Source: Bacteroidia bacterium (GTDB taxonomy: Bacteria; Bacteroidota; Bacteroidia; 2-12-FULL-35-15). From it: a DNA stretch of 64,000 nucleotides. Where the stretch lies: the NCBI GenBank assembly GCA_030654175.1, contig JAURXZ010000006.1, positions 124,001 through 188,000 of the forward strand. Reading direction: 5' to 3'. A model generated the notes under the pieces. It searched no databases. It was not told the DNA's origin and saw nothing but the letters and a program-made list of their open reading frames with translations. Made by a program: the position numbers and the translations under genes. Positions 50,993-64,000 of the stretch are shown in pieces. Every line of letters starts with the position of its first letter. Position 1 is the first letter of the stretch.

Positions 50993-52672
50993 ATGAAAAA
51001 AATTAACATTTTATTTATTTCCACTGCTCTTTTGTGTTCTGCATTTATTAAGGCACAAGAAAATCCGGGTATTGCTCCTTACAGTTTTAATCATACTGTA
51101 GAAAGCAGTATACAAACAATAGTTCTGCCTTCACATGATTTCACACAGGATATTGAAGATGCCAAGGTATTTGAAAAGCAAGGCAACTACCCTCGTTTTG
51201 CCAGAAGTTTTGATTTAGATCTTACTATGCTTAATTCAGGCAGCTGGACTGAACTTGCAAACGGAGATAGAATATGGCGTTTAAATTTAAGATCGAACGG
51301 AGCACTCTTTACCTGTCTGTTTTTCGATAATTTCTTTTTACCTGAAGGTTCTACTTTCCATGTTTATACTCCTGATCACAAGAATGCATCCGGCTCATAC
51401 ACCAATGCGGATAACCAGGGGAATGAATTATTTTCAACAGAGTTCATCAGCGGAAGTGAAAGCACGATCGAGTATTTTGAACCTTCTTCTGTAAAAGGGC
51501 AAGGTAAATTAAGAATTTCTTCCCTGGCCCATCAATACAGGTTGTTGCCAATGGCCAATGATTGTGAAGTGAATGTTATTTGTTCTGAAGGATCTGCCTG
51601 GCTGGACGAAAAAAGAGGTGTTGTCCGTATCCTTGTAAAAGAAGGAACAAACGTTGGTTATTGCTCCGGCTCCCTGATCAATAATACGGCACTGGATTGT
51701 AAACGTTATATTTTAACAGCCTTTCATTGCGGTGTAAGTGCAACCACTCTTGATTTAACGAAGTGGAAATTCTACTTTAATTTTGAAGCAACGCAATGTA
51801 CCGGGCAATTAGATACGTATGGTGTTATTAATAATGTATTTACAGGTTGTACAAAAAAAGCCGATTCTGACGATAATGGAGGAGACACAGGATCCGATTT
51901 TTTGTTGTTACAAATGAGCGCTACCACACATCCTACCTGGTGGACAAATGTTTATTGGAATGGATGGAATAAAGCGAGTACTGCACCTGTAAGCGGGTCT
52001 ATTGCTATTCATCACCCAAATGGTGATAATAAAAAAATATCAATAACTACCGGAGTTGGTACTTCTGCGAGCTGGGGTGGAGCTGTTCCCGGAACGCACT
52101 GGCGGGTAAAATGGGGAGGTACAACAAATGGATGGGGAGTTACAGAAGGAGGTTCATCAGGAGGCCCTTTATTTAATGCGAACAGCCAGATAGTGGGGAC
52201 TTTAACCGGTGGCGGTTCCTTTTGCAATAGCGTTCAACCAAATGGTCAAAACCAGCCTGATGCATTTGGCAAACTTTCCTATCATTGGGTATCAGATGGC
52301 ACCACCAGCCTGCACCAATTAAAGCCATGGTTAGATCCAACAAATTCAGGCGTTACCTTTTTAAATGGGGACTACAATCCTTGTAACGGTGTTGGTATCA
52401 CTGAACCTGCTATTGAAAACCTATTAAGCATTTATCCAAATCCAACGAATGGTTCATTCAATGTTTCTATTGAACTTACAAAAACAAATGATATTGATAT
52501 TGCAGTTTATAATATTGTAGGGCAGGAAGTTTCTCATAAAAAAATTGAAAACACCTTAGGCGGCACCTATAACATGGATCTGACAAACAAAGCCGATGGA
52601 GTATATTTTATTCATATAAAAACAAGCAATTATAGTGTTGTTAAAAATATGATACTATTAGGATCGAAATAA
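50993..52672 (+). CDS. Secreted trypsin-like serine protease with T9SS sorting domain
   Basis: 559 aa. Signal peptide about 1-21. A pro-region (about 22-190) with beta strands is followed by a chymotrypsin-fold domain: His245 in LTAFHCG, Asp in GSDFLLLQ (about 300-307), Ser389 in GGSSGGPLF, as in lysyl endopeptidases. The last 75 residues (from IYPNPTNGSFN to the C-terminus) are a T9SS type A sorting domain. It is a secreted proteinase, probably Lys- or Arg-specific. A strong terminator follows at 52697-52726. It is the last core-like gene before the cassette region. Confidence 0.9.
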   Translation: MKKINILFISTALLCSAFIKAQENPGIAPYSFNHTVESSIQTIVLPSHDFTQDIEDAKVFEKQGNYPRFARSFDLDLTMLNSGSWTELANGDRIWRLNLRSNGALFTCLFFDNFFLPEGSTFHVYTPDHKNASGSYTNADNQGNELFSTEFISGSESTIEYFEPSSVKGQGKLRISSLAHQYRLLPMANDCEVNVICSEGSAWLDEKRGVVRILVKEGTNVGYCSGSLINNTALDCKRYILTAFHCGVSATTLDLTKWKFYFNFEATQCTGQLDTYGVINNVFTGCTKKADSDDNGGDTGSDFLLLQMSATTHPTWWTNVYWNGWNKASTAPVSGSIAIHHPNGDNKKISITTGVGTSASWGGAVPGTHWRVKWGGTTNGWGVTEGGSSGGPLFNANSQIVGTLTGGGSFCNSVQPNGQNQPDAFGKLSYHWVSDGTTSLHQLKPWLDPTNSGVTFLNGDYNPCNGVGITEPAIENLLSIYPNPTNGSFNVSIELTKTNDIDIAVYNIVGQEVSHKKIENTLGGTYNMDLTNKADGVYFIHIKTSNYSVVKNMILLGSK

Positions 52673-52696
52673 ATGGATGGCATAAGTATAAAACAA

Positions 52697-52726
52697 AAGC
52701 GTCCCGCAATTTGCGGGACGTTTTTG
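52697..52726 (+). terminator. Intrinsic terminator after the T9SS protease gene
   Basis: CGTCCCGC and GCGGGACG pair around a small AATTT loop, followed by TTTTTG. Confidence 0.9.
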
Positions 52727-52883
52727 TTTATATAAGAAAAAGTTAATTGTGTCCATTTGTTTAGAAGGTAATTATTATGTTTAGTATTGTCATTTAAGAA
52801 GTAAATTGCTAAAATAAAGATGGAGATGAAAACGCTTAGTGTAAATAACCAAATATTTGATTTTTATACGCTACTTTCACCTT

Positions 52884-52977
52884 CACATAAAGCGGAAATA
52901 TACGCAACCAGTTGCGCATATATTCCAAATAAGATAAATAAGCGCAACTAGTTGCGATTATAAACGTGTTATGCGTA
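52884..52977 (+). repeat. attC-like site 0 (left end of cassette array)
   Basis: The site ends with the R'-like box GTTATGCGTA (52968-52977). Inner boxes CGCAACCAGTTGCG (52904-52917) and CGCAACTAGTTGCG (52943-52956) pair with one mismatch, like L boxes. The left box CACATAAA is imperfect because it has AAA where AAC is expected. The R' box is the exact reverse complement of TACGCATAAC at 61214-61223, the left box of site A. The left limit is uncertain. Confidence 0.55.
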
Positions 52978-53069
52978 ATTATAAAAAAAGAGACAGCAGT
53001 AAATCGACAAACAGGTTTTTCATTCCTTAACTGTTTTTTGGACAATTAATCGGTAAAAAAACAAAAAAT

Positions 53070-53340
53070 CGGTACGACTTATGTTTGCTAACTTGTAGAC
53101 CGTTACGCAGAAAAAAAAATAAATGCAAAAACGGTACGACCTGTGTTTGCTATATTGCTGACCGTTACGCTAAAAAAAAACACAAAACGGTACGACCTGT
53201 GTTTGCTAAATTGCTGACCGTTACGCTGAAAAAAAAAACGGTACGACCTGTGTTTGCTAACTTGCAGACCGTTACCCCCAAAAAAATAAATACAAAACGT
53301 TACGACCTGTGTTTGCTGACTTGTAGACCATTAGCCGACA
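53070..53340 (+). repeat. Direct-repeat array 1 (five units, ACGACCTGTGT family)
   Basis: Units start at 53070, 53132, 53188, 53239 and 53298, spaced 51-62 bp. Each has a core of about 38 bp running from CGGTACGACCTGTGTTTGCT to GACCGTTACGC, so that AACGGT and ACCGTT ends are mutually inverted. Units are separated by A-rich spacers of 12-25 nt. Unit 1 has ACTTATG and unit 5 has CGTTACG as variants. The core includes GTTACG, similar to the R' box GTTATGCG. Confidence 0.8.
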
Positions 53341-53411
53341 CTCTTTCCGACCACAATGTTTTTTAAAATTTCCCCACCGCACTTTTAAAAAATAATTTTA
53401 GGTCCGCCCAC

Positions 53412-53475
53412 ATTGGCACATTTTGGTTTTGCCCTTTCCACAAGCCGACACAAGAGCAAAACCAAAAAGAGCCAA
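53412..53475. repeat. Inverted repeat before the controller promoter
   Basis: TTTTGGTTTTGC (53421-53432) is exactly inverted at 53456-53467, flanked by ATTGGC and GCCAAT. This gives a hairpin about 64 nt long. It resembles hairpins seen in intergenic regions of other Bacteroidota. Confidence 0.6.
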
Positions 53476-53522
53476 TTTTCCCACCCACAATTTGTCTGTT
53501 GAAAAGATTTTAAGAAATAATG

Positions 53523-53581
53523 TTGAAAGTTTATTTACAATTACTACTTTTGACACTTATTGTCAATATAATATATGTCAA
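53523..53581 (+). promoter_or_regulatory. Promoter and operator of the restriction-modification operon
   Basis: TTG (53523-53525), 19-nt spacer, TACTTTTG (53545-53552) form a consensus Bacteroidota promoter. Overlapping the start region is TTGACA-N5-TGTCAA (53550-53566), a perfect inverted repeat, and a third TGTCAA at 53576-53581 spans the controller start codon. The spacing suggests control by the HTH protein encoded next, as for the C-proteins of restriction systems. Confidence 0.7.
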
Positions 53582-53886
53582 CAAAAACATTAGGCGAAAA
53601 GCTTAGACAAATAAGAGAGCAAAACGAATTACCTTTACGTAAGGTAGCTGTGTTGCTTGACATTGATGTAGCCATTCTTAGCAAAATGGAACGTGGTGAG
53701 CGCAAACTATCAAAAGAGGTAGTGTTGAAACTTGCAGACATCTATAAATACAACTCGGAAGAACTTTTGGTGCTTTTTCTTAGCGAAAAAATAATGTATG
53801 AAATACAAGATGAAGACCTTGGAGAAAAAGCATTAAAAGTAGCGGAAAGAAGAGTAAAATATTTAAAAGCAAACAAGACCAAATGA
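53575..53886 (+). CDS. Xre-family HTH controller protein of the restriction operon
   Basis: 103 aa. Residues about 6-62 form an Xre/Cro HTH (LGEKLRQIREQNELPLRKVA, then LDIDVAILSKMERGERKLS). The C-terminal tail is helical and charged. It overlaps the next gene by 4 bp (ATGA type). Its position and the TTGACA/TGTCAA sites at its own promoter fit an autoregulatory controller that delays restriction until methylation is complete. That role is inference. Confidence 0.85.
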   Translation: MSTKTLGEKLRQIREQNELPLRKVAVLLDIDVAILSKMERGERKLSKEVVLKLADIYKYNSEELLVLFLSEKIMYEIQDEDLGEKALKVAERRVKYLKANKTK

Positions 53887-56870
53887 CGATTAAGGACTTA
53901 AATATAAAATATAAAGCCGACAGAGCCTACTACTTGACAAACAAGTATAATGAAACACTGCTCCGCAGTGATTTTTTAGACCCGTTTTTTGAGTTGCTCG
54001 GTTGGGATATAAAAAACACTTCCGGCAAACCCACCAATGAAAGAGAAGTAATTTTAGAAGAAGCATTAAAAGAAAATGCTTCCGAGCATTCTAAAAAACC
54101 TGATTACACGTTTCGATTATTTTCAGAAAGAAAATTCTTTTTAGAAGCCAAAAAACCTTGCGTTGCAATTGAATCAAATAATGATTCAGCTAAACAAGTC
54201 AGGCGTTATGGCTTTACAGCCAAACTAAAAATTTCAGTTTTATCAAATTTTGAATACCTAATTATTTACGACACATCCGTAAAAGTTGACAAAGACGACA
54301 CTTTTCAAAAGGCTTTAATAAAAAAATATCACTTCACTGAATATGAAAGCAAGTTTGAAGAAATCAAAAAACTTTTAGGAAAAGATGTAGTTTATTCAGG
54401 AGCATTTGAGACGGAGTGGAAAGAAATTGAAACCAAAATTAATCAGTATTCAATTGACAATCTTTTCTTAAACCAAATCAACGAATGGAGAAAATCGTTA
54501 GGTGCCGAGATTTACAAACACGAACCTAAAATTGACGAACAGCAATTAAATGATGTTGTTCAAAGTTATTTAAACAGGATTTTATTTCTTCGTGTTTGTG
54601 AAGACAGAAATTTAGAAGATTACCAAACTCTCTTGAAATTTGCTAATGCAAACGACTTTAAAGCATTAATCAAAAAGTTTGAACAAGCCGACAAACGTTA
54701 TAACTCAGGGCTTTTTGACCAATTACTTAAAGACAAGATTGTAGAAAACATTAGTTCTGTTTTTTGGTCAATTATTAAACAGCTTTATTATCCCGAAAGC
54801 CCCTACTCTTTCAGTGTTTTCTCATCAGACATTTTAGGTAGCATTTACGAAATTTTCTTGTCGGAAAAATTAGTAATTCAAAACGGTTCAATAGCTTTAG
54901 TTAAAAAGCCTGAGCATATTGACAGAGATATTATCACAACTCCGACATTTATAATTAGTGATATTTTAAGGAATACTGTTTTAACAAAATGCCAAGGTAA
55001 AACCGATAAAGAAATACTAAAACTAAAATTTTCAGATATATCGTGCGGTTCTGGAGCGTTTATTTTAGAGTTGTTTCAATTATTAAATGATATTTTGATT
55101 GACTACTATTATAAAGCAGACAAATCAAAGCTCGTTCAAACAAACGTCAATACTTACAAACTTCCTTTCAAAATAAAAAGGGACCTTTTATTGAATTGTA
55201 TTTATGGCGTTGATAAAGATTATAATGCAGTTGAAGCCACAAAATTTGGCTTGCTTTTAAAATTACTGGAAGATGAAGATGTAAATTCAACAAACGCCAG
55301 TAAGCCAGTATTGCCAGACCTTGCAAACAATATTTTCTTTGGAAATAGCTTATTGAATCCAAAACAAGTAAAAGGAAAAAAAGAACAGGTAATTATCAAT
55401 CCTTTTGATTTCTCAAAACTAAAATTTGATGTAATTGTAGGTAATCCGCCTTATATGAAGTCGGAGGATATGAAAAATATTACACCACTTGAATTGCCTC
55501 TTTACAAAACAAATTTCAATTCGGCATACAAGCAATTTGATAAATACTTTTTGTTTATTGAGCAAGGTATAAACCTACTAACTAATGACGGACTTTTAGG
55601 CTATATCGTGCCGAGCAAGTTTACAAAAGTTGGTGCTGGCAAAAAATTAAGGGAAGAACTTGCTACAAAAGGCTATCTACATTCGATTGTTTCTTTTGGC
55701 GCAAATCAAGTATTCGCTGACAAAACAACTTACACTTGTTTACTCATCTTAAACAAAAAACCTCAAAAGACTTTTCAATACGCAGAAGTTAAGAGTTTAA
55801 AAAATTGGAAAGTACGTGAACCAAATGCAGTAAAATATGCAACTAAAAACACAACCAATTTAGACAATGAAGTTTGGGTGTTAGTTCCACCAGACCTAAC
55901 CAATGCTTACAATAAAATATCTGCACAAAGTATAAAATTGGTTGATTTAGTTGGCGAGGATAATATTTTCAATGGCATTCAAACAAGTGCGAATGAAATT
56001 TACATTTTCATTTCGACAAAAGAAGATGCAAAATATTACTACTTCACAAAAAAGAATGTTGATTACAAAATTGAAAAGGCTATAACAAAACCATATTTTC
56101 AAACTTCATCAGGCGAAGACAACTTAAATACTTACAGAACATTCAAGCCAAATGCAAGAGTAATTTATCCTTACGAAAACACGCAAAAAGGAGTTGAAAT
56201 AATTCCGCTTTCAATCATTCAGAAAAAATATCCTTTGGCTTTTGATTACTTCCAAAAACATAAGACTATTCTAAACGACCCTAAAAGAGACATAAAACCT
56301 GAACCTGCAACAAAAAATGAATGGCATAGATTCGGCAGACAACAGGGTTTAAATATTTTAGCGAAGAAAGAAAAAATAATACTTGGTGTATTATCCAGTG
56401 GAGACAAATATGCTATTGATAACTTCGGAACATTATTTACATCCGGTGGCACAGCAGGTTATTGTGCAATAACTTTACCTGACAATTTCAAGTATTCCAC
56501 CTATTATATTCAAGCAATATTGAATTCTAAATATGTAGAGTGGTTTGTAATTTTAACTGGAGAAATTTTCAGAGGAAGTTACTTTGCAAGAGGAACAAAG
56601 GTTCTTAACAATTTACCTATTCGTAAAATTGATTTTGCAAATATAAAGGATAAAGGACTACACGATAAAATCGTTGAACTTCAAAAGGAGTTAATTAAAA
56701 TTCAAGACCAAATTGATGCAAACATTGGCAATAAGAGAGCATTAACTCCACTACAAAGTCAGTTTTCAAGAGAGAAAATAGCTTTAGAAAAACTATTAGC
56801 CAAATTATATGATTTAGGCAATGATGATGCGCAAATCCCACTAATCAAAGAATTGTATGAAGCTAATTGA
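53883..56870 (+). CDS. Type IIG-like restriction-modification enzyme (fused nuclease and N6-adenine methylase)
   Basis: 995 aa. The N-terminal part carries a PD-(D/E)xK nuclease core: Asp74 in KKPDYTF and Glu88-Ala-Lys90 in FLEAKKP. The methylase core has motif I DISCGSGAF (385-393) and catalytic NPPY (521-524) in FDVIVGNPPY, the Eco57I type. The C-terminal region (about 680-995) has the TaqI/Eco57I-like specificity layout and a terminal helical stretch. It should both cut DNA and methylate adenine in one strand of its site. It overlaps the methylase gene by 14 bp, so the two are co-translated. Confidence 0.85.
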   Translation: MTIKDLNIKYKADRAYYLTNKYNETLLRSDFLDPFFELLGWDIKNTSGKPTNEREVILEEALKENASEHSKKPDYTFRLFSERKFFLEAKKPCVAIESNNDSAKQVRRYGFTAKLKISVLSNFEYLIIYDTSVKVDKDDTFQKALIKKYHFTEYESKFEEIKKLLGKDVVYSGAFETEWKEIETKINQYSIDNLFLNQINEWRKSLGAEIYKHEPKIDEQQLNDVVQSYLNRILFLRVCEDRNLEDYQTLLKFANANDFKALIKKFEQADKRYNSGLFDQLLKDKIVENISSVFWSIIKQLYYPESPYSFSVFSSDILGSIYEIFLSEKLVIQNGSIALVKKPEHIDRDIITTPTFIISDILRNTVLTKCQGKTDKEILKLKFSDISCGSGAFILELFQLLNDILIDYYYKADKSKLVQTNVNTYKLPFKIKRDLLLNCIYGVDKDYNAVEATKFGLLLKLLEDEDVNSTNASKPVLPDLANNIFFGNSLLNPKQVKGKKEQVIINPFDFSKLKFDVIVGNPPYMKSEDMKNITPLELPLYKTNFNSAYKQFDKYFLFIEQGINLLTNDGLLGYIVPSKFTKVGAGKKLREELATKGYLHSIVSFGANQVFADKTTYTCLLILNKKPQKTFQYAEVKSLKNWKVREPNAVKYATKNTTNLDNEVWVLVPPDLTNAYNKISAQSIKLVDLVGEDNIFNGIQTSANEIYIFISTKEDAKYYYFTKKNVDYKIEKAITKPYFQTSSGEDNLNTYRTFKPNARVIYPYENTQKGVEIIPLSIIQKKYPLAFDYFQKHKTILNDPKRDIKPEPATKNEWHRFGRQQGLNILAKKEKIILGVLSSGDKYAIDNFGTLFTSGGTAGYCAITLPDNFKYSTYYIQAILNSKYVEWFVILTGEIFRGSYFARGTKVLNNLPIRKIDFANIKDKGLHDKIVELQKELIKIQDQIDANIGNKRALTPLQSQFSREKIALEKLLAKLYDLGNDDAQIPLIKELYEAN

Positions 56871-58467
56871 GAACGCAACAGCAGAAAAATTAAGGGGTGG
56901 CTTTTATACTCCTGAACCAATTGCAGAATTTATTTTGCGTTGGGGAATTAATGGAAGCACTGACTTTGATATACTTGAGCCAAGTTGTGGTGATGGGGTT
57001 TTTCTTGAACAGTTGAAATCTTTAAAGTCAAAATACAAATCAATCACAGCAATTGAGTTTGACGAAATTGAAGCCAAAAAAGCCGACAAAATTGAATTAA
57101 AAAATAAACAAATCATCAACGATGATTTTCATACTTATTGCAATAATACTATACAACGCTTTGATTTAATTGTGGGCAACCCACCTTACATACGGTACCA
57201 ATTTTTTGATAGACAGCAACAGGTTGAGGCAGGCGATATTTTTATTAAAGCGGGATTGACATATTCTAAACTTACAAATGCTTGGGTTTCCTTTGTTGTT
57301 GGCTCATCCCTATTACTAAAAGACAAAGGTGGTAAAATTGGTTTTGTTTTACCGGCAGAAATTTTGCAAGTTTCATTTGCATTACAATTGCGAAAATTTA
57401 TCGCACACTTTTACAATAAAATAAATATCATTTCTTTTGAAAAGCTTGTATTTCCTAATATTCAGCAAGAAGTGGTTTTACTACTTTGCGAAAAGAATGG
57501 GACTAAAGAACACAACATTGAACATATTGAATTGAAAGACGCAAGCGAATTAAAAACACTTGATACAGCAAGATTAAAAAGCCCACAAAAGAAAATTGAT
57601 TTTAAATCTAATAAATGGACTTTTTATTTTTTGGAGCAGGAAGAAATTGATTTTTTGGAAAACATTGCCAAGAAAAGAAATATTTCAACTCTTGGAAAAT
57701 ATGCAAAAGTTGAAGTTGGTATAACAACAGGCTCAAATGACTTTTTTACTGTTCCTCTTACAACAGTTGAAGAATATGACCTTCACGCCTATGCAAAACC
57801 GATGGTTGGCAGGAGCGTACAAGTCAACAGCGTAATTTTTACAGAAAAAGATTGGGAGAAAAATAAATTTTCAAAAGCAAAGGCACATTTGCTTGCGTTC
57901 CCTGACAAACAAAATCTCAATCAAAAAAATGGGGCAGTAAAATACATTGCTCACGGTGAAAGTTTGGGTATTCACAAGGGTTATAAGACAGGAATTAGGA
58001 ATGATTGGTTTGTAGTTCCCTCATTGAAAATTTCTGATGCGCTTTTTATCAGAAGAAATAATCTTTATCCAAGACTAATAATTAATGAGGCTGGAGCATA
58101 CACCACAGACACAATGCACCGTGTGTTTGTGAAACAAGGAACAGACATAAATGCTCTTACAGCAAGTTATTATAATTCACTATCACTTGCATTTACGGAA
58201 GTAAGCGGACGAAGCCACGGAGGTGGAGTTTTAGAATTAATGCCAAATGAAGCAGAGAAAGTTTTATTACCATATCACAAAGACAACGCTAAGTTACTTT
58301 CTCAAATTGACAAATTAATACGCAACAAGACGGATATTGAAGAGGTTTTAAAAATTACGAATCAGATAATTTTGAAGGAACATTATGGTTTAACGCAAAA
58401 GGAAATAAATTTAGCTCATAGCATTTGGAAAAAACTATCGGCAAGGAGATTAAATAGGGGTAAATAA
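56857..58467 (+). CDS. N6-adenine DNA methyltransferase (Eco57I-like)
   Basis: 536 aa. Motif X is GGFYTP (14-19), motif I is EPSCGDG (41-47) and the catalytic NPPY is at 108-111 (DLIVGNPPYIRY). No nuclease core is seen, so it is a pure modification enzyme, probably methylating the strand left unmodified by the fused enzyme, as in Eco57I- and MmeI-like pairs. The C-terminal half (about 240-500) should contain the specificity domain (GRSVQVNSVIF, GRSHGGGVLELMP). Overlap of 14 bp with the preceding gene. Confidence 0.88.
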   Translation: MKLIENATAEKLRGGFYTPEPIAEFILRWGINGSTDFDILEPSCGDGVFLEQLKSLKSKYKSITAIEFDEIEAKKADKIELKNKQIINDDFHTYCNNTIQRFDLIVGNPPYIRYQFFDRQQQVEAGDIFIKAGLTYSKLTNAWVSFVVGSSLLLKDKGGKIGFVLPAEILQVSFALQLRKFIAHFYNKINIISFEKLVFPNIQQEVVLLLCEKNGTKEHNIEHIELKDASELKTLDTARLKSPQKKIDFKSNKWTFYFLEQEEIDFLENIAKKRNISTLGKYAKVEVGITTGSNDFFTVPLTTVEEYDLHAYAKPMVGRSVQVNSVIFTEKDWEKNKFSKAKAHLLAFPDKQNLNQKNGAVKYIAHGESLGIHKGYKTGIRNDWFVVPSLKISDALFIRRNNLYPRLIINEAGAYTTDTMHRVFVKQGTDINALTASYYNSLSLAFTEVSGRSHGGGVLELMPNEAEKVLLPYHKDNAKLLSQIDKLIRNKTDIEEVLKITNQIILKEHYGLTQKEINLAHSIWKKLSARRLNRGK

Positions 58468-58475
58468 AAAATGCT

Positions 58476-60845
58476 ATGATTTCTAAAATCGACATAACAA
58501 ATTTTGGACTTTTCAATAACTATTCTTGGAATACTATTATTGGGAAGGATAAAACCTTTAAAAAGCTCAATATTATTTATGGTAGAAATTACTCGGGCAA
58601 AACTACATTAGCAAGGATATTTAAGTGCATTGAAGATGCTAATTTGCACAAAAATTATACCGACTGCGGATTTACAATAACTTTTAACGATGGAAAAACT
58701 ATCACAGAATCTGAATTTGAAACTGCATTTAAAGTTCGAGTTTACAATACTGATTTTGTCAAAGACAATTTAAGTTGGCTTCATAATGATGACGGAACAA
58801 TTAAACCATTCACAATTCTTGGAGCAAAAAATGTAGAATTAGATAAGCAAATTAAAAATATTGAAATCAAATTAGGAAATGAAGAAGAGAAAACTGGTTT
58901 ATTTTATGAACTAAGCGTAAATCTAAAAATTCTTACTGACCATAAGGGTGAACATCAAACAAAAAATAATTCTTTAGAAGAAAAATTAAGAAAAAGAGCA
59001 AACGATAAGATAAAGGTCGATAGTACTTTATTTCTTCCTTCGGCTTCAAAAAAAACTTACACGATTAATGACATCAAAAATGATGTATTAAGTATTGAAA
59101 ATGATTTGTCAAAACATTCGTTAGATGCAGAAAACATAGCAGAAAGATTGAAATTGATGAAAGAGGTTTCAATGGATAATATTAATTTCTTACCTGAATC
59201 ACAACCTAATTTTGCTACTTACTATCTCAAAACAAAAGAGCTTTTAATTAAAAAAATAAAGCCAAACCAACCAATAGCTGATTTAGTTAATGATAGCCTA
59301 CTACAAGAATGGGTCAGACAAGGCATTGATAAGCATAAAGAAAAACGCACTGAATGTGGTTTTTGTGGTAACCCAATAGATAAAAACTTATGGGACAAGT
59401 TAGATGCTCATTTTAGTAAAGAATCAGAAGAGTTAAGAAAAGAACTCAAAAGCCAAATTGATACTTTGGAACAAGCAAAACAAAGCCTATCAGTATTTCT
59501 TATTTTGAATAAAGATTTGTTTTACACCAGTTTATCACTAAAATTTGAAAGCATTCTAAAAGGATGGAATTCAGCAATTAAAACATATGGAAAATCTATT
59601 GACAAATTAATATCTGAGCTAAAAGAACGAGAAAAGGATATTTTTAGAGAAAAAGAATTATCAGAAGTATCGGACGTATCAGTAACAATATTTGAGGCAA
59701 TAAAAGAATTTAACGCGCTAATAGGTGAACATAATAATAAGACGAGCTCATTATCTACCGACCAAATAAAAGCGAGATTGGAGCTCCGAAAAGCAAACAT
59801 AGCTCAGTATTTAATAGATATTGATTATAAAAATGAATCCGAAAAAATTCAAGAACTTGAAAAGATTTATAAAAAGGCGGAAGCAGACTTAATCCCAAAG
59901 CAAGAAGAAATCGTAAAATTAACAGAAGAAAAACGAACTTTAGAAGCTCAAGCAAAAGATGAAAGTAAAGGTGCAGAGCTCGTAAATCAACACCTCACTC
60001 ATTTTTTTGGACACAATGAATTAAAATTAGTTGCTGAAGGTCAAACACCAAATATGAAATTTAAAATTGACCGTGATGGCATTGATGCAAACAATTTGAG
60101 TGAAGGAGAATGCAGTCTAATATCTTTTTGTTATTTCGTTGCGAAAATGGAAGATGAATTGAAGGATGAAATAAATGCCAATAAACTACTCATATACATT
60201 GATGATCCAATTTCCAGTTTAGACAGCAATCATATTTTTTTTATGTTCAGTCTCATTGAAAGTATAATTGCTAAACCAAAAAAATATGGACAGCTTTTTA
60301 TCTCTACTCATAACTTAGACTTTTTGAAATACCTCAAGAAGCTAACAATCCCAAAGTATAAACCACAGCCGAACAGTGGTGACAAGGGGGATGTGAAATA
60401 TTTTATGATAGAAAGGAAAAATAAAGGAAATACAACTTTGAAATTGGCACCTGATTATTTAAAAAATTATATTACAGAGTTTAACTATTTATTCAATCAG
60501 GTATATCAATGTTCCATTTCTGACGCTTCAACAATATCACACGATTACCAATACAACTTTGGAAATAATATGCGAAAATTTTTAGAGGCGTATCTTTTCT
60601 ACAAATATCCAAGCCACAAGCTCTCAAATGACGAAAGAATTAAAAAGTATTTCAATAATGACAGCATCACAATCAATTTAGTTAATAGAGTTATTAATGA
60701 ATATTCTCATATCGGAGAACATTTTGACAGAAGTATGGAACCCGTTGATATAGACGAAATCAATAAAATTTCAAATGCCGTAATCAATAAAATAAAGATT
60801 TCTGACCCTGACCAATATGAAGCATTACTGGAAAGCATACAATAG
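58476..60845 (+). CDS. AAA_13-family ATPase, RloC/PrrC-like candidate anticodon nuclease
   Basis: 789 aa. Walker A is GRNYSGKTT (36-44). A CxxC pair (Cys294, Cys297 in ECGFCGNP) flanked by coiled coils looks like a zinc hook, as in RloC. LSEGECSL (near 541) is the ABC signature, IYIDDPISSLD (near 573-583) Walker B, ISTHN (near 610) the switch His. Near the C-terminus, Arg700-x3-Glu704 and His745 recall the R-x3-E...H triad of PrrC/RloC anticodon nucleases. It is the last gene of the operon, 8 nt after the methylase stop. Nuclease activity is not proven by motifs alone. Confidence 0.72.
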   Translation: MISKIDITNFGLFNNYSWNTIIGKDKTFKKLNIIYGRNYSGKTTLARIFKCIEDANLHKNYTDCGFTITFNDGKTITESEFETAFKVRVYNTDFVKDNLSWLHNDDGTIKPFTILGAKNVELDKQIKNIEIKLGNEEEKTGLFYELSVNLKILTDHKGEHQTKNNSLEEKLRKRANDKIKVDSTLFLPSASKKTYTINDIKNDVLSIENDLSKHSLDAENIAERLKLMKEVSMDNINFLPESQPNFATYYLKTKELLIKKIKPNQPIADLVNDSLLQEWVRQGIDKHKEKRTECGFCGNPIDKNLWDKLDAHFSKESEELRKELKSQIDTLEQAKQSLSVFLILNKDLFYTSLSLKFESILKGWNSAIKTYGKSIDKLISELKEREKDIFREKELSEVSDVSVTIFEAIKEFNALIGEHNNKTSSLSTDQIKARLELRKANIAQYLIDIDYKNESEKIQELEKIYKKAEADLIPKQEEIVKLTEEKRTLEAQAKDESKGAELVNQHLTHFFGHNELKLVAEGQTPNMKFKIDRDGIDANNLSEGECSLISFCYFVAKMEDELKDEINANKLLIYIDDPISSLDSNHIFFMFSLIESIIAKPKKYGQLFISTHNLDFLKYLKKLTIPKYKPQPNSGDKGDVKYFMIERKNKGNTTLKLAPDYLKNYITEFNYLFNQVYQCSISDASTISHDYQYNFGNNMRKFLEAYLFYKYPSHKLSNDERIKKYFNNDSITINLVNRVINEYSHIGEHFDRSMEPVDIDEINKISNAVINKIKISDPDQYEALLESIQ

Positions 60846-60854
60846 CTTACCCAC

Positions 60855-60924
60855 AGGTGTAAGCACAATTGCAATTCGCGCAAAACCAACAGCACAAGCA
60901 AAAATTGCAATAGAGCTTACACCT
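60855..60924. repeat. Long hairpin after the AAA_13 ATPase gene
   Basis: AGGTGTAAGC-N3-ATTGCAATT (60855-60876) is matched by AATTGCAAT-N3-GCTTACACCT (60903-60924), so the stem has two paired blocks split by a 3-nt internal loop. It starts 10 nt after the stop codon. It may terminate transcription or be the remnant of another recombination site; the paired-block layout fits both. Confidence 0.65.
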
Positions 60925-61024
60925 TTGCCACGCAAAGAAAAATTATTATTTAAAATCTCTACCCTTCAAAATTTTTAAAAACTGCGAACGCACTTGCAAC
61001 ATCGAAAAAAAAACAAATACAAAA

Positions 61025-61185
61025 CGGTACGACCTGTGTTTGATTCCTTGTAGACAATTGCGCATAAAAAAGTAAAAACAAAACGGCACGACCTGTGTTT
61101 GCTAATAAAAAACAATACGACCTGTTTCCTGGCTTGTAGAAAATTGTGCAGAAAAAAATACGTACGGGTTACGACCATTGTTTGA
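61025..61185 (+). repeat. Direct-repeat array 2 (degenerate, ACGACCTGTGT family)
   Basis: Four degenerate units near 61025, 61084, 61113 and 61162 share CGGTACGACCTGTGTTTG with array 1 in the same orientation. Spacers are A-rich. It lies at the right end of the same cassette block as array 1. Confidence 0.7.
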
Positions 61186-61213
61186 ATTTGTGGGGGTGGA
61201 CAGAAGAAATAAA

Positions 61214-61405
61214 TACGCATAACATCACCTAAATTAAATGGCCGTTAATAGCCAGTTTCATCATTTGAGTTCGCAATCAAAATCGGTCGTGGCAAAAACA
61301 TTTCACAGCGGCAGAAAATTATTTTTTATTTTGTTTTTGCCACTTGTAATTGATTAATTTCGTTTACGAAGGCGGCCACTTCATTTAGCATATCGTTAGG
61401 GGCAA
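61214..61405 (+). repeat. attC-like site A
   Basis: Left box TACGCATAAC (61214-61223) and right box GTTAGGGGCAA (61395-61405) enclose an L-type stem (CTAAAT ... GGCCG with CGGCCACTTCATTTAG) and an inner perfect 11-bp stem GTGGCAAAAAC (61289-61299) / GTTTTTGCCAC (61333-61343). The whole folds as one long imperfect hairpin of about 190 nt. It is very similar in sequence to site B. Confidence 0.75.
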
Positions 61406-61427
61406 TGCAATAAAAAAGAAAAAAAAC

Positions 61428-61449
61428 GAACGGACAAGAACTTTCCGTT
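61428..61449 (+). promoter_or_regulatory. AACGGA/TCCGTT hairpin module at the cassette 1 start
   Basis: An A-rich tract is followed by AACGGA (61429-61434) and TCCGTT (61444-61449), separated by 9 nt. The same module follows site C (63764-63784). It sits 33 nt before the gene, so it is probably a leader element shared by cassettes. Confidence 0.55.
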
Positions 61450-61482
61450 AGCAAGCAACTTGAGACATAAAATATAAATAAG

Positions 61483-62307
61483 ATGCCTGAAAATAAAAAA
61501 GACTCCATCATACACTGGTTGGGCATAGGAGCAAAAGTTGCAGGTAATGTTGCTTCTAAAGTTATTGGAATTGACTCTTCAACTATCGAAGGTACTATCG
61601 CGGGAGGTGCATTGGGTGCTCTTGTGACAGAAACGCTACAAAACATTGGGAAGGATATGAGAAATCGCTATCTCTCCAAAAAAGAAGAAACCCGTATAGG
61701 TACTTCTTTTTTTTATCTATTAGAAAAGTTCAAAGAAAATATTGATAATGGACAGAAAGTTAGAGATGATAATTTTTTCGATAAACAAGAAGGAGATTTT
61801 AGCAGAAATGAGGAAATTCTTGAAGGATTATTATTGATTGCACAAAAATCTTATGAAGAAAAAAAAGTAAGATTTATTTCATATTTCTATGCCAACATTC
61901 TTTTTTCCAAACAAATAAACACCTACCACGCCAATTATTATTTAAAAATGGCCGAAGGGATGACGTATAGGCAATTTTGTCTACTAGCCATTTATTTTGA
62001 AAAAGAAAAATACGGACTTCAAGTGGACATACAACCTCCTGATTCTGCCATTGATCATTACGATATCAGAGCAGAAATGCTTTCACTAAATGACAAAGCA
62101 CATCTTATCGTTGATTTAGGTGTTACTGGAGGCAACGTTAAGAGCCAGCCCTTTTCACCAGTAATCGTTGTTATTACAGAATATGGCAAATTGTTTTATG
62201 AATTGTTTAATTTATCACAAATTCCTTTTGAAGATAAATTAGAAGTTGCAGAACAAATAATACAACCTGAATGGTTTGAAAAATTGAAAAGAGAACAGCA
62301 CCTTTGA
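61483..62307 (+). CDS. Unknown protein of cassette 1
   Basis: 274 aa, no family recognised. The N-terminus has a Gly/Ala-rich hydrophobic stretch (about 12-58: WLGIGAKVAGNVA, GTIAGGALGALV) that could be a membrane-inserting or glycine-zipper region. The rest is helical with charged segments (ETRIGTSFFYLLEKFKE, KKVRFISYFYANILF). No signal peptide or lipobox. It is flanked by an A-rich leader with a hairpin and by array 3. The hydrophobic N-terminus plus a soluble domain is the layout of some phage-defence effectors, but this is only a possibility. Confidence 0.65.
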   Translation: MPENKKDSIIHWLGIGAKVAGNVASKVIGIDSSTIEGTIAGGALGALVTETLQNIGKDMRNRYLSKKEETRIGTSFFYLLEKFKENIDNGQKVRDDNFFDKQEGDFSRNEEILEGLLLIAQKSYEEKKVRFISYFYANILFSKQINTYHANYYLKMAEGMTYRQFCLLAIYFEKEKYGLQVDIQPPDSAIDHYDIRAEMLSLNDKAHLIVDLGVTGGNVKSQPFSPVIVVITEYGKLFYELFNLSQIPFEDKLEVAEQIIQPEWFEKLKREQHL

Positions 62308-62312
62308 ATATA

Positions 62313-62705
62313 GAACGTTTCGACCATAGAGTTTTAAGACCTATGTGTTCAGAACTTTGTATAATGAGACCTGTGTGTAATACGACCGTAGCGTGTTTCG
62401 ACCGTTATGTTTTTATAACTTTGTACTCAGACCTGTGTGTATTGCGACCAAAGCGTGTTTCGACCGTTATGTTTTTTATAACTTTGTACTCAGACCTGTG
62501 TGTATTACGACCAGAGCGTGTTTCGACTGTTATGTTTTTTACAACTTTGTATTCAGACCTGTGTGTAATACGACCGTAATGTTTTAAGAACTTTGTATTC
62601 AGACCTGTGTGTAATAGTACTGTCACGTGTTTCGACCGTTGTGTTTTAAGAACTTTGTATTCAGACCTGTGTGTAATACGACCGTAGCGTGTTTCGACTG
62701 ATATA
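62313..62705 (+). repeat. Direct-repeat array 3 (about seven units)
   Basis: AGACCTGTGT words start at 62337, 62367, 62429, 62492, 62555, 62601 and 62663, mostly 62-63 bp apart, with one 46-bp unit. The unit runs AGACCTGTGTGTAATACGAC, then CGTAGCGTGTTTCGACCGTTATG, then an AT-rich filler ending ACTTTGTA(C/T)TC. It shares ACGACC, CCTGTGT and GACCGTTA(C/T)G words with arrays 1 and 2. Confidence 0.8.
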
Positions 62706-62731
62706 AATATAACTCGAAAGAAAATTTGCAC

Positions 62732-62923
62732 TTGCCCCTAACATCACCTAAATGATAAAGCCGTTTATAGTAAGCTTCATCATTTAAGTTCGCAATGAAA
62801 ATAGGTCGTGGCAAAAACATTTCACAACGGAAGAAAATTATTTTTTATTTGTTTTTGCCACTTGTAATTTTATAATTTTGTTTACGAAGTCGGCTTCATC
62901 ATTTAGCTTGCCGTTATGGGCAA
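62732..62923 (+). repeat. attC-like site B
   Basis: Left box TTGCCCCTAAC (62732-62742), right box GTTATGGGCAA (62913-62923). L-type boxes CTAAATGATAAAGCCG (from 62748) and CGGCTTCATCATTTAG pair over 16 positions with one mismatch, and the inner stem GTGGCAAAAAC (62808-62818) / GTTTTTGCCAC (62851-62861) is perfect. Its left box matches site A's right box better than its own right box. Confidence 0.78.
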
Positions 62924-63738
62924 TACTAAAAATCAATACGGTACATGAAAGCAATTATTTTATTTGGATTTTCTTTTCTACTCCTTTCATGTAATCAACA
63001 AACTGAAAAGACTGCAACAATCACAGACTCTTTGTCAAATAAACCTACATTAGATTCGAAAATAATAGACCTAACTGGAGAAATTATTTCACCTTTTCAA
63101 AAAGAACTTAATAATGCCATCAAGGATCAAAAAATTGACCCTTACTACAAAGACATATACAAACAAGAAAAACTGATTGTTGCAGACGATAATAAAATGC
63201 TATCAATTACAGACAGTTTATTTACTAATGATCCTAACACTGACCTTTTCTTTTTCATAGTATTTACAAAATCAATGAATGGTTCAGATGGCTTTTATTC
63301 TGAGGCACTTGGACTTGCATCATTTAATTTTATAACTACCAAAACAGAATGGTTTGCTGACTATTTTAACATTGCTCCTAAGCTGACCGACCAAGACATG
63401 GATAATTGGGCAACCTATATTTGGGGAGAAATTCAAATTTCTAGAGAGAACCAAGAAGGAAAAGCCATTAATGAACTGGAAGAAAAACTATTGGACAACT
63501 TAAAAGGAGTAAGAGAAGAATACAAAGTGGTAATAGAAAAACTAATTAAAAAAATAAGAAGTACTGCCCATAACACCACCTAAAATAAATGCGGAGCAAG
63601 TGCAAGTTGCAAATGTTTTTTCGCAGCGGTATAAATTAATTTCTAAACATTTGCAAGGTTGGTTTGTGCTTTTAATTTACATTTGCGGTAACGAATAGCA
63701 GAGTGCAAGTAAGTCCGCACTTCTTTTAGGTTCGTTCG
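62914..63738 (+). mobile_element. Integron-like cassette 2
   Basis: Starts inside GTTATGGGCA of site B and ends at the G of GTT in site C. The left box of site C, TGCCCATAAC (63565-63574), is the exact 10-bp complement of this block's start. It carries one lipoprotein gene (62945-63583). It has no direct-repeat array. Confidence 0.6.
62945..63583 (+). CDS. Hypothetical lipoprotein of cassette 2
   Basis: 212 aa. The lipobox LLSC (Cys near 16) follows a hydrophobic N-terminus, with NQQTEKT after it. The mature part is helical and charged; the end (about 160-212) is a predicted long helix (EGKAINELEEKLLDNLKGVR). No family recognised. The ATG lies 32 nt after the R' box of site B, and the stop codon (63581-63583) sits 9 nt beyond the R'' box of site C, so the gene fills the cassette. 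Confidence 0.7.
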   Translation: MKAIILFGFSFLLLSCNQQTEKTATITDSLSNKPTLDSKIIDLTGEIISPFQKELNNAIKDQKIDPYYKDIYKQEKLIVADDNKMLSITDSLFTNDPNTDLFFFIVFTKSMNGSDGFYSEALGLASFNFITTKTEWFADYFNIAPKLTDQDMDNWATYIWGEIQISRENQEGKAINELEEKLLDNLKGVREEYKVVIEKLIKKIRSTAHNTT

Positions 63739-63748
63739 TTGTGTGCCA
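63564..63748 (+). repeat. attC-like site C
   Basis: Left box TGCCCATAAC (63565-63574), right box GTTGTGTGCC (63738-63747). L-type boxes CCTAAAATAAATGCGGA (63579-63595) and TCCGCACTTCTTTTAGG (63714-63730) pair, and the inner stem TTGCAAATGTTT (63607-63618) / AAACATTTGCAA (63645-63656) is perfect. The sequence differs from A and B, but the layout is the same, which is how attC sites behave. Confidence 0.75.
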
Positions 63749-63930
63749 TTGTAAAAAAAAAAAGAACGGACAACCTTTCCGTTCGACAATTATGATTTCT
63801 GTAAATCGAATTTTGAATTTATTATACCGTATCTTTCGACTATTGTTCTTTTCGACTACTAATTTTTAAAAAACATTTATTAATTAACACATAGATGTAT
63901 TTAGACCCTGATGTTGCTAACAGAAATTAC
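63584..63930. other. Gene-free stretch: site C and leader of the next cassette
   Basis: About 347 bp holding most of site C (63564-63748), the AACGGA/TCCGTT module (63764-63784) and an AT-rich leader before the last partial gene. An ATG at 63895 is also in frame with that gene. Confidence 0.6.
63764..63784 (+). promoter_or_regulatory. AACGGA/TCCGTT hairpin module at the cassette 3 start
   Basis: GAACGGA (63764-63770) is exactly inverted by TCCGTTC (63778-63784), preceded by an A-tract. It is a near copy of the module at 61428-61449 and lies at the same place, shortly after the R' box. Confidence 0.6.
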
Positions 63931-64000
63931 ATGAAACCTCAGCAGACAATTTTACTGATAATTGTTTTGATGACTTTTGGAAGTTGTAAAAACTTTAATT
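63931..64000 (+). CDS. Partial lipoprotein gene of cassette 3
   Basis: Starts at ATG 63931; the right end is cut off by the window. The visible 23 residues (MKPQQTILLIIVLMTFGSC plus KNFN) form a lipoprotein signal with lipobox FGSC. An in-frame ATG at 63895 would add 12 residues that fit a signal less well. Nothing can be said about the mature protein. Confidence 0.55.
   Translation, partial: MKPQQTILLIIVLMTFGSCKNFN

Follow-up and report, generated by a model that had tools for sequence, protein, structure and literature searches.

RloC proteins were defined in 2008 (Davidov & Kaufmann, PMC2610378) by the motifs of an ATP-binding cassette (ABC) ATPase, a coiled-coil insert with a CxxC motif, a C-terminal Arg-x3-Glu-x36-52-His motif whose His is often preceded by Ser, and a length of 658–897 aa. 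In that survey, 8 of 72 RloC genes were located in a type I or type III restriction-modification (R-M) locus, and the passages on RloC linkage name no type IIG partner. RloC relatives have been shown by others to excise the wobble nucleotide. A later study (Anantharaman et al. 2013, PMC3710099) linked ABC-HEPN genes, including RloC/PrrC-like ones, to ‘a diverse array of R-M systems’ and proposed both a multi-pronged defence for such HEPN genes and a HEPN fold for the C-terminal domain of RloC. Here, an operon is described in which an RloC gene stands last behind a type IIG R-M pair. It occurs in a 64,000-nt stretch of the Bacteroidia bacterium assembly GCA_030654175.1 (contig JAURXZ010000006.1, positions 124,001–188,000; hereafter the window), part of contig 19 in a genome of 5.1 Mb and 51 contigs. 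The idea of a multi-pronged defence is shared with the ABC-HEPN proteins in R-M operons; the passages of PMC3710099 considered here do not name type IIG, and ‘Eco57I’ and ‘MmeI’ are absent from its main text. No description of an IIG-RloC (or Eco57I-RloC) pairing was found in a literature search that had subscription journals and supplements outside its reach. RloC and its type I/III linkage had been described before; what looks new is the IIG partner.

The operon consists of four genes spanning ~7.3 kb, all on the plus strand, ordered as controller, type IIG enzyme, methylase and RloC. The first two genes overlap by 4 bp and the second and third by 14 bp, while the methylase and RloC are separated by 8 bp. 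The same layout, in one direction, had been described in a first-pass annotation made from the sequence alone and was matched by the open reading frame coordinates, though the start given there (53523) lies slightly 5′ of the first open reading frame (53575). The four genes and the motifs of the IIG enzyme are:

53575..53886, plus strand: helix-turn-helix (HTH) controller of the XRE/Cro type, 103 aa (HTH_3, 39.8 bits)
53883..56870, plus strand: type IIG (Eco57I-like) restriction enzyme-methyltransferase, 995 aa (PADLOC PDLC03604, 1155 bits, residues 3–992)
54099..54152, plus strand: PD-x13-ExK nuclease motif, IIG aa 73–90
55443..55454, plus strand: NPPY methyltransferase motif, IIG aa 521–524
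56857..58467, plus strand: M.Eco57I-like N6-adenine methyltransferase, 536 aa (M_Eco57I_C, 124 bits; PADLOC PDLC03267, 668 bits)
58476..60845, plus strand: RloC, a Rad50-like ABC ATPase with a zinc hook and a C-terminal domain of the HEPN/anticodon nuclease type, 789 aa (AAA_13, 471 bits)

The combination of features in this four-gene operon is far beyond chance. Based on the gene spacing, RloC is most likely co-transcribed with the IIG pair under the one HTH controller and translated right behind the pair. A scan for sigma-70-type promoters returned a chance-level count (35 found, 36.0 expected), the same scan counted eight terminator-like sites (5.0 expected), and positions 52600–64000 had no match in Rfam. 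Relatives of the controller adjoin R-M genes at three other loci (L054, 77 bits; L100, 85 bits; L158, 55 bits; loci from other records are numbered in this way throughout).

The designation ‘type IIG-like’ in the first-pass annotation was correct, as Pfam, PADLOC and the motifs assign the nuclease, methylase and specificity parts to a single polypeptide. The IIG protein carries HSDR_N, Eco57I and a weak TaqI_C domain (slightly below the Pfam cut-off), with a DISCGSG methylase motif at aa 385, and the separate methylase has EPSCGDG at aa 41 and NPPY at aa 108, such that the catalytic motifs of both R-M proteins are intact. A fused nuclease/methylase/specificity protein accompanied by a separate M.Eco57I-like methylase, as identified by M_Eco57I_C, resembles the Eco57I-type IIG systems (R.Eco57I and M.Eco57I), from which the operon differs by its added HTH controller gene and the appended RloC. 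This fused-plus-separate arrangement is that of the classical Eco57I locus.

All of the features that define RloC were found in the product of the last gene, including split Rad50-like ABC motifs, the CxxC hook, and a C-terminal motif (R700-KFL-E704-x40-H745, with S744 preceding the His) within 789 aa. The elements of the protein are:

58581..58607, plus strand: Walker A, GRNYSGKTT, RloC aa 36–44
59355..59366, plus strand: CGFC zinc-hook motif within the coiled-coil insert, RloC aa 294–297
60096..60110, plus strand: ABC signature LSEGE, RloC aa 541–545
60186..60224, plus strand: Walker B / D-loop LLIYIDDPISSLD, RloC aa 571–583
60453..60842, plus strand: C-terminal helical domain, HEPN-like, approximately aa 660–789, with R700, E704 and S744-H745 (alignment, model, VIA-align and hhalign)

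The protein matched the PADLOC candidate PDC-S06 (model PDLC04887) over its full length with 914 bits, an entry that carries no description or mechanism, compared to 53.6 bits over residues 499–772 for the PrrC model. In an alignment of 36 RloC sequences, the window included, R700, E704, H745 and the two hook cysteines (C294 and C297) were invariant and S744 was present in 35, in a set whose members were picked because their C-terminal motif was intact or they were closely related, and not as a random sample. The same R/E/H and both hook cysteines were invariant in all 32 sequences of a second alignment (A1), eight of which are plasmid copies; both sets took near-full-length or closely related genes and left out truncated copies. 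With the PrrC of the E. coli EcoprrI locus the protein shares the C-terminal triad, an ATPase and the R-M operon setting, and in an hhalign profile alignment (98.8%) its R/E/H aligned with R310/E314/H346 of nine Bacteroidota PrrCs. PrrC proteins, however, are 341–416 aa, lack the hook insert and belong to type Ic loci. A PrrC identity was excluded by the length of 789 aa, the CxxC insert and the type IIG/M.Eco57I-like neighbours, and on these motifs the last gene is identified as RloC, not PrrC. The first-pass designation ‘RloC/PrrC-like’ was thus correct and can be narrowed to RloC on length, zinc hook and partner type. The hook-split ABC ATPase, the C-terminal motif and the size range are common to the RloCs of Geobacillus kaustophilus and Acinetobacter baylyi (PMC2610378; Klaiman et al. 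2013, PMC3874168), from which the window copy differs in standing last in a type IIG operon.

The full-length model of RloC (predicted local distance difference test score [pLDDT] 81.2, predicted template modelling [TM] score 0.54) was Rad50/SMC-like, and Rad50/SMC structures were its top Foldseek matches, with 51 at E ≤ 0.001, though at low TM scores and large root-mean-square deviation (rmsd). Matches from a PDB sequence search comprised Rad50, AriA, SMC, RecF, transporter ATPases, and coiled-coil or apolipoprotein chains, with no RloC or PrrC entry. For the C-terminal domain modelled alone (pLDDT 85.8), the first 17 VIA-align rows were HEPN-type (Z 7.5–4.8, rmsd 3.5–5.2, 102–114 residues), values that are not decisive as, by the tool’s own caveat, Z below 13 does not prove the fold of a helical bundle; the first non-HEPN row was AadA (Z 4.7). 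Among these rows, 1ylm, 1wwp, 7bxo, 5yep, 6m6w, 6m6u and 2q00 are taken to be HEPN-type. Foldseek with the C-terminal model returned nothing at E ≤ 0.001 (best E 0.45, a HEPN toxin). In the model R700 and E704 lie in helix 695–710 and H745 two residues past helix 730–743. Overall, the predicted fold of the domain looks HEPN-like, being nearest to HEPN RNases, with more weight placed on the PrrC alignment and the triad than on the fold match, because the Foldseek E-value was not significant and Z was below 13. The comparison with the PrrC nuclease fold that had been proposed in the first-pass annotation was carried out in part: the model is HEPN-like with conserved R/E/H, and the PDB sequence search gave no PrrC structure for the superposition.

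Using 42 AAA_13 (PF13166) neighbourhoods, it was possible to tally the partners of RloC in other genomes. With the window excluded, 28 were kept in which the motif is intact and the 5′ flank measures 1.9 kb or more; L103, L104, L107, L111 and L112–L121 were dropped as split, truncated, motif-less or nearly devoid of 5′ flank, and L156 and L018 are a single locus. Type I loci held eight of the 28 (L090, L091, L093, L094, L151, L152, L155 and L159; PADLOC-confirmed in L152, L155 and L159 only, the other type I probes having been named by eye), with RloC placed between hsdS and hsdR in L151 and L152. A type III pair preceded RloC once (L160), and a type IIG gene of the same orientation immediately preceded RloC twice (L095, gap 132 bp; L158, gap 14 bp), for a total of 11 R-M-linked RloCs. 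The remaining 17 had no counted linked R-M gene, though three of these (L098, L099 and L100) have uncounted R-M genes nearby. Outside the census, the nearest RloC relative found (L016, 66% identical) has an IIG gene directly upstream on the same strand (gap 63 bp), whose start is lost at the contig end, and in L020 RloC follows ~1–1.5 kb behind a type III-like pair. In two type I loci, a 249-aa gene of unassigned function overlaps the RloC start by 4 bp (L090:8957-9706 and L094:9633-10382).

A search for further type IIG operons ending in an AAA_13 gene, as suggested in the first-pass annotation, thus yielded three more pairs (L016, L095 and L158), with RloC last each time. These three pairs rule out a one-off pairing. 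The window differs from all three by the methylase gene between IIG and RloC, and its plan is mirrored with other families in L158, which consists of an HTH-methylase fusion, an IIG (PDLC03606, 954 bits) and RloC. The four IIG-linked RloCs fell in four separate places of a 43-row RloC tree, which requires four changes, every one of them imposed by supported branches. The four IIG enzymes had three best PADLOC models, PDLC03604 (window), PDLC03612 (L095 and, less well, L016) and PDLC03606 (L158). Across ~424 kb of flanks around the 28 census RloCs, only two IIG-like genes were found, both directly 5′ of RloC and on the same strand; the probes included these two genes, which leans towards the result, and other IIG families may be missed. 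The repeated IIG-RloC pairing points to a possible triggering of one arm by the other.

A relay through DNA ends is suggested by an end-making cutter that adjoins an end-sensing tRNase, and is the explanation favoured here. The RloC of G. kaustophilus was active only once its ATPase switched it on with linear DNA, and a break inducer activated that of A. baylyi equally whether the cells were wild type or mutant in hsdR, hsdM or hsdS (PMC3874168); RloC activity rises upon zinc-hook mutation and falls with zinc (PMC2610378). In the resting cell, the methylases would protect the chromosome and RloC would be silent. Double-strand ends could arise from the cutting of unmodified incoming DNA, from loss of the R-M genes or from breaks made by a phage, and the ATPase/hook part of RloC would sense these ends and free the C-terminal tRNase otherwise held in check. 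The released tRNase would stop translation, adding a second, growth-stopping layer when ends persist, with the IIG cutter as signal maker and RloC as effector. We infer that the window RloC cuts tRNA and that ends from its IIG enzyme may trigger it. That breaks, the operon’s own cuts included, switch on the RloC tRNase is given a probability of about one half. More tentatively, IIG cutters and RloC may constitute a two-step defence that recurs, with the double-strand ends made by the cutter itself serving as the ligand that activates the tRNase. Under such a two-step defence it is possible, though doubtful, that successful or partial restriction, and not its failure, licenses the translation stop, the reverse of the guard logic of PrrC.

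The natural trigger of RloC and its relation to R-M have been under discussion since 2008 and are unsettled in the passages of the literature covered. The type IIG operon, which fits a single enzyme, a methylase and an RloC into 7.3 kb and has a defined end-making activity, offers a simple test bed that can separate an RloC answering restriction cuts from one answering restriction failure. If the cut-triggered reading is true, R-M systems could be sensors for growth-arrest effectors as well as shields.

Several observations weigh against a relay through DNA ends. In A. baylyi, the unlinked type I R-M protein was not the mediator of break-induced RloC activation (PMC3874168), and in a survey of Pseudomonas strains RloC was correlated with phage susceptibility, not resistance (PMC12447246). 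Cells survive the ends produced by ordinary restriction, so a threshold or the persistence of ends must be assumed. The RloC of L016 (L016:3260-5617, from a metagenome-assembled genome) carries one in-frame stop. RloCs of the window clade at 58–62% identity have no adjoining R-M gene (L017, L018, L019, L021 and the plasmid L122), and most relatives of this clade that were examined stand alone. Finally, none of the 17 foreign relatives of the window IIG (30–42% identity; 15 of 394 other genomes at an E cut-off of 1e-60) had RloC behind it, with 13 of the 17 judgeable, as the contig or stretch stops within the gene or shortly past it in L049, L050, L052 and L057; the downstream search used phmmer with the window RloC as sole query, which very distant RloCs could escape. 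An obligate IIG-RloC unit was rejected on this phmmer result for the 13 judgeable relatives.

Because most close RloC relatives stand alone, the IIG-RloC link appears, from these comparisons, to be a plug-in joined repeatedly and not a fixed pair. It is conceivable, if doubtful, that RloC is a passenger, a mobile defence gene in its own right that came to lie behind a defence operon, sharing its transcription while the two arms have no effect on each other. The solo RloCs at 58–62% identity are what this would predict, and so are the relatives on plasmids (122 records matched RloC, 98 of which were typed conjugative), as those opened look solo, with the reservation that the PLSDB tables are incomplete. 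Among ten plasmid neighbourhoods, the nine with annotated (incomplete) PLSDB tables listed no R-M gene directly beside RloC, the tenth (H7) being unannotated, and a probe scan of four genes either side of RloC in all ten recovered no type I, IIG or III gene. Other defence-like genes occupy similar places behind R-M genes (L043, L044 and L054). The four separate IIG pairings, with RloC last and on the same strand each time and no other IIG-like gene in the census flanks, speak against such a passenger, as does the presence of the same kind of gene between hsdS and hsdR in the type I loci L151 and L152.

L043 and L044, from two genomes of one genus, have methylase and IIG pairs that agree in length and score (unaligned) and are followed by different defence-like genes, an OLD-type ATPase and a UvrD-like helicase in L043 and a GHKL ATPase in L044. 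In L054 (L054:3257-11293), a single run contains a relative of the window HTH controller, an Eco57I-family protein, a methylase, a SIR2 defence protein and a HerA-like ATPase. On the plasmid L123 (L123:11641-20400), a solo RloC adjoins an opposite-strand operon annotated as anti-phage DUF1156/DUF499/phospholipase D.

The first-pass annotation had read the operon by the example of PrrC, as a two-layer defence in which the last gene guards the R-M enzyme. In such a guard, a complex of IIG and methylase would bind and silence RloC until a phage restriction inhibitor frees the tRNase and the infected cell dies. T4 Stp activates the homologue PrrC (hhalign 98.8%), which a type Ic R-M enzyme otherwise silences (PMC2610378, PMC12707154), all nine PrrC loci examined adjoin hsd genes (read by eye), and the tight gene coupling, with 8 bp between methylase and RloC, and the frequency of RloC within R-M loci (11 of 28 in the census) are consistent with such a guard. 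However, the A. baylyi RloC was neither silenced nor break-activated via its R-M protein, though its authors leave room for R-M control in other situations (PMC3874168), RloC has an internal switch, and most of the clade relatives examined have no linked R-M. A single conserved docking surface is also hard to see because the partners differ (types I and III and three IIG models). As the two studied RloCs answer linear DNA or breaks, and one does so in R-M mutants too, the guard is the weaker reading for RloC; it is unsupported by these published data and by the mostly solo clade relatives, and is considered unlikely.

The setting of the operon bears on a further explanation. Repeat units of ~57 bp (core ACGGTACGACCTGTGTTTGCT) flank it, with five copies on the left (53055–53347) and two to three on the right (61007–61145). 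The closest congener contig (L168, genome G411, an assembly of ~790 contigs and 83% completeness) matches the window to 52676 and then carries other genes, so that colinearity stops just before the operon. Among 36 genomes of the genus, the left-flank transporter was matched in 11 and pyrH in 32, with both on one contig only in the window’s genome. This possibly mobile setting, together with the HTH controller and an end-sensing chemistry identical to that of the relay, would fit an addiction module, in which loss of the R-M genes leaves undermethylated sites to be cut and the breaks trigger RloC and death, strengthening post-segregational killing in place of phage defence. Since RloC would be lost along with the methylases and would need to outlive them, this is regarded as highly improbable.

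Counting the window’s own genome in each case, AAA_13 was detected in 36 of 395 phylum genomes (E ≤ 1e-20) and 13 of 345 class genomes (E ≤ 1e-60), two draws that have some genomes in common. Direct relatives of the window RloC occurred in 12 of the 395 (E ≤ 1e-20) and relatives of the window IIG in 16 (E ≤ 1e-60). Among 41 near relatives, AAA_13 was present in two, the window’s own genome and one congener; the congener locus (L060, genome G403), which has no R-M partner, came from a separate search outside the 28-locus census.

In seven genomes of one genus (L103, L104 and L113–L117), AAA_13 proteins of 613–654 aa keep the hook and lack the C-terminal R-x3-E...H motif, and the group is identified by this absence as an ATPase without the nuclease. 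These genes are mostly located beside a BchL-like gene (named by eye), and the AAA_13 gene is split in L116. To the right of the operon in the window, a 274-aa gene of unassigned function is bracketed by copies (61200–61420 and 62739–62932) of a 200-bp element whose ends are imperfectly inverted. The element had nine matches in the window’s own genome (40 of 66 candidates scored), with another at C19:193496, and has what we take to be a putative likeness to integron attC sites.

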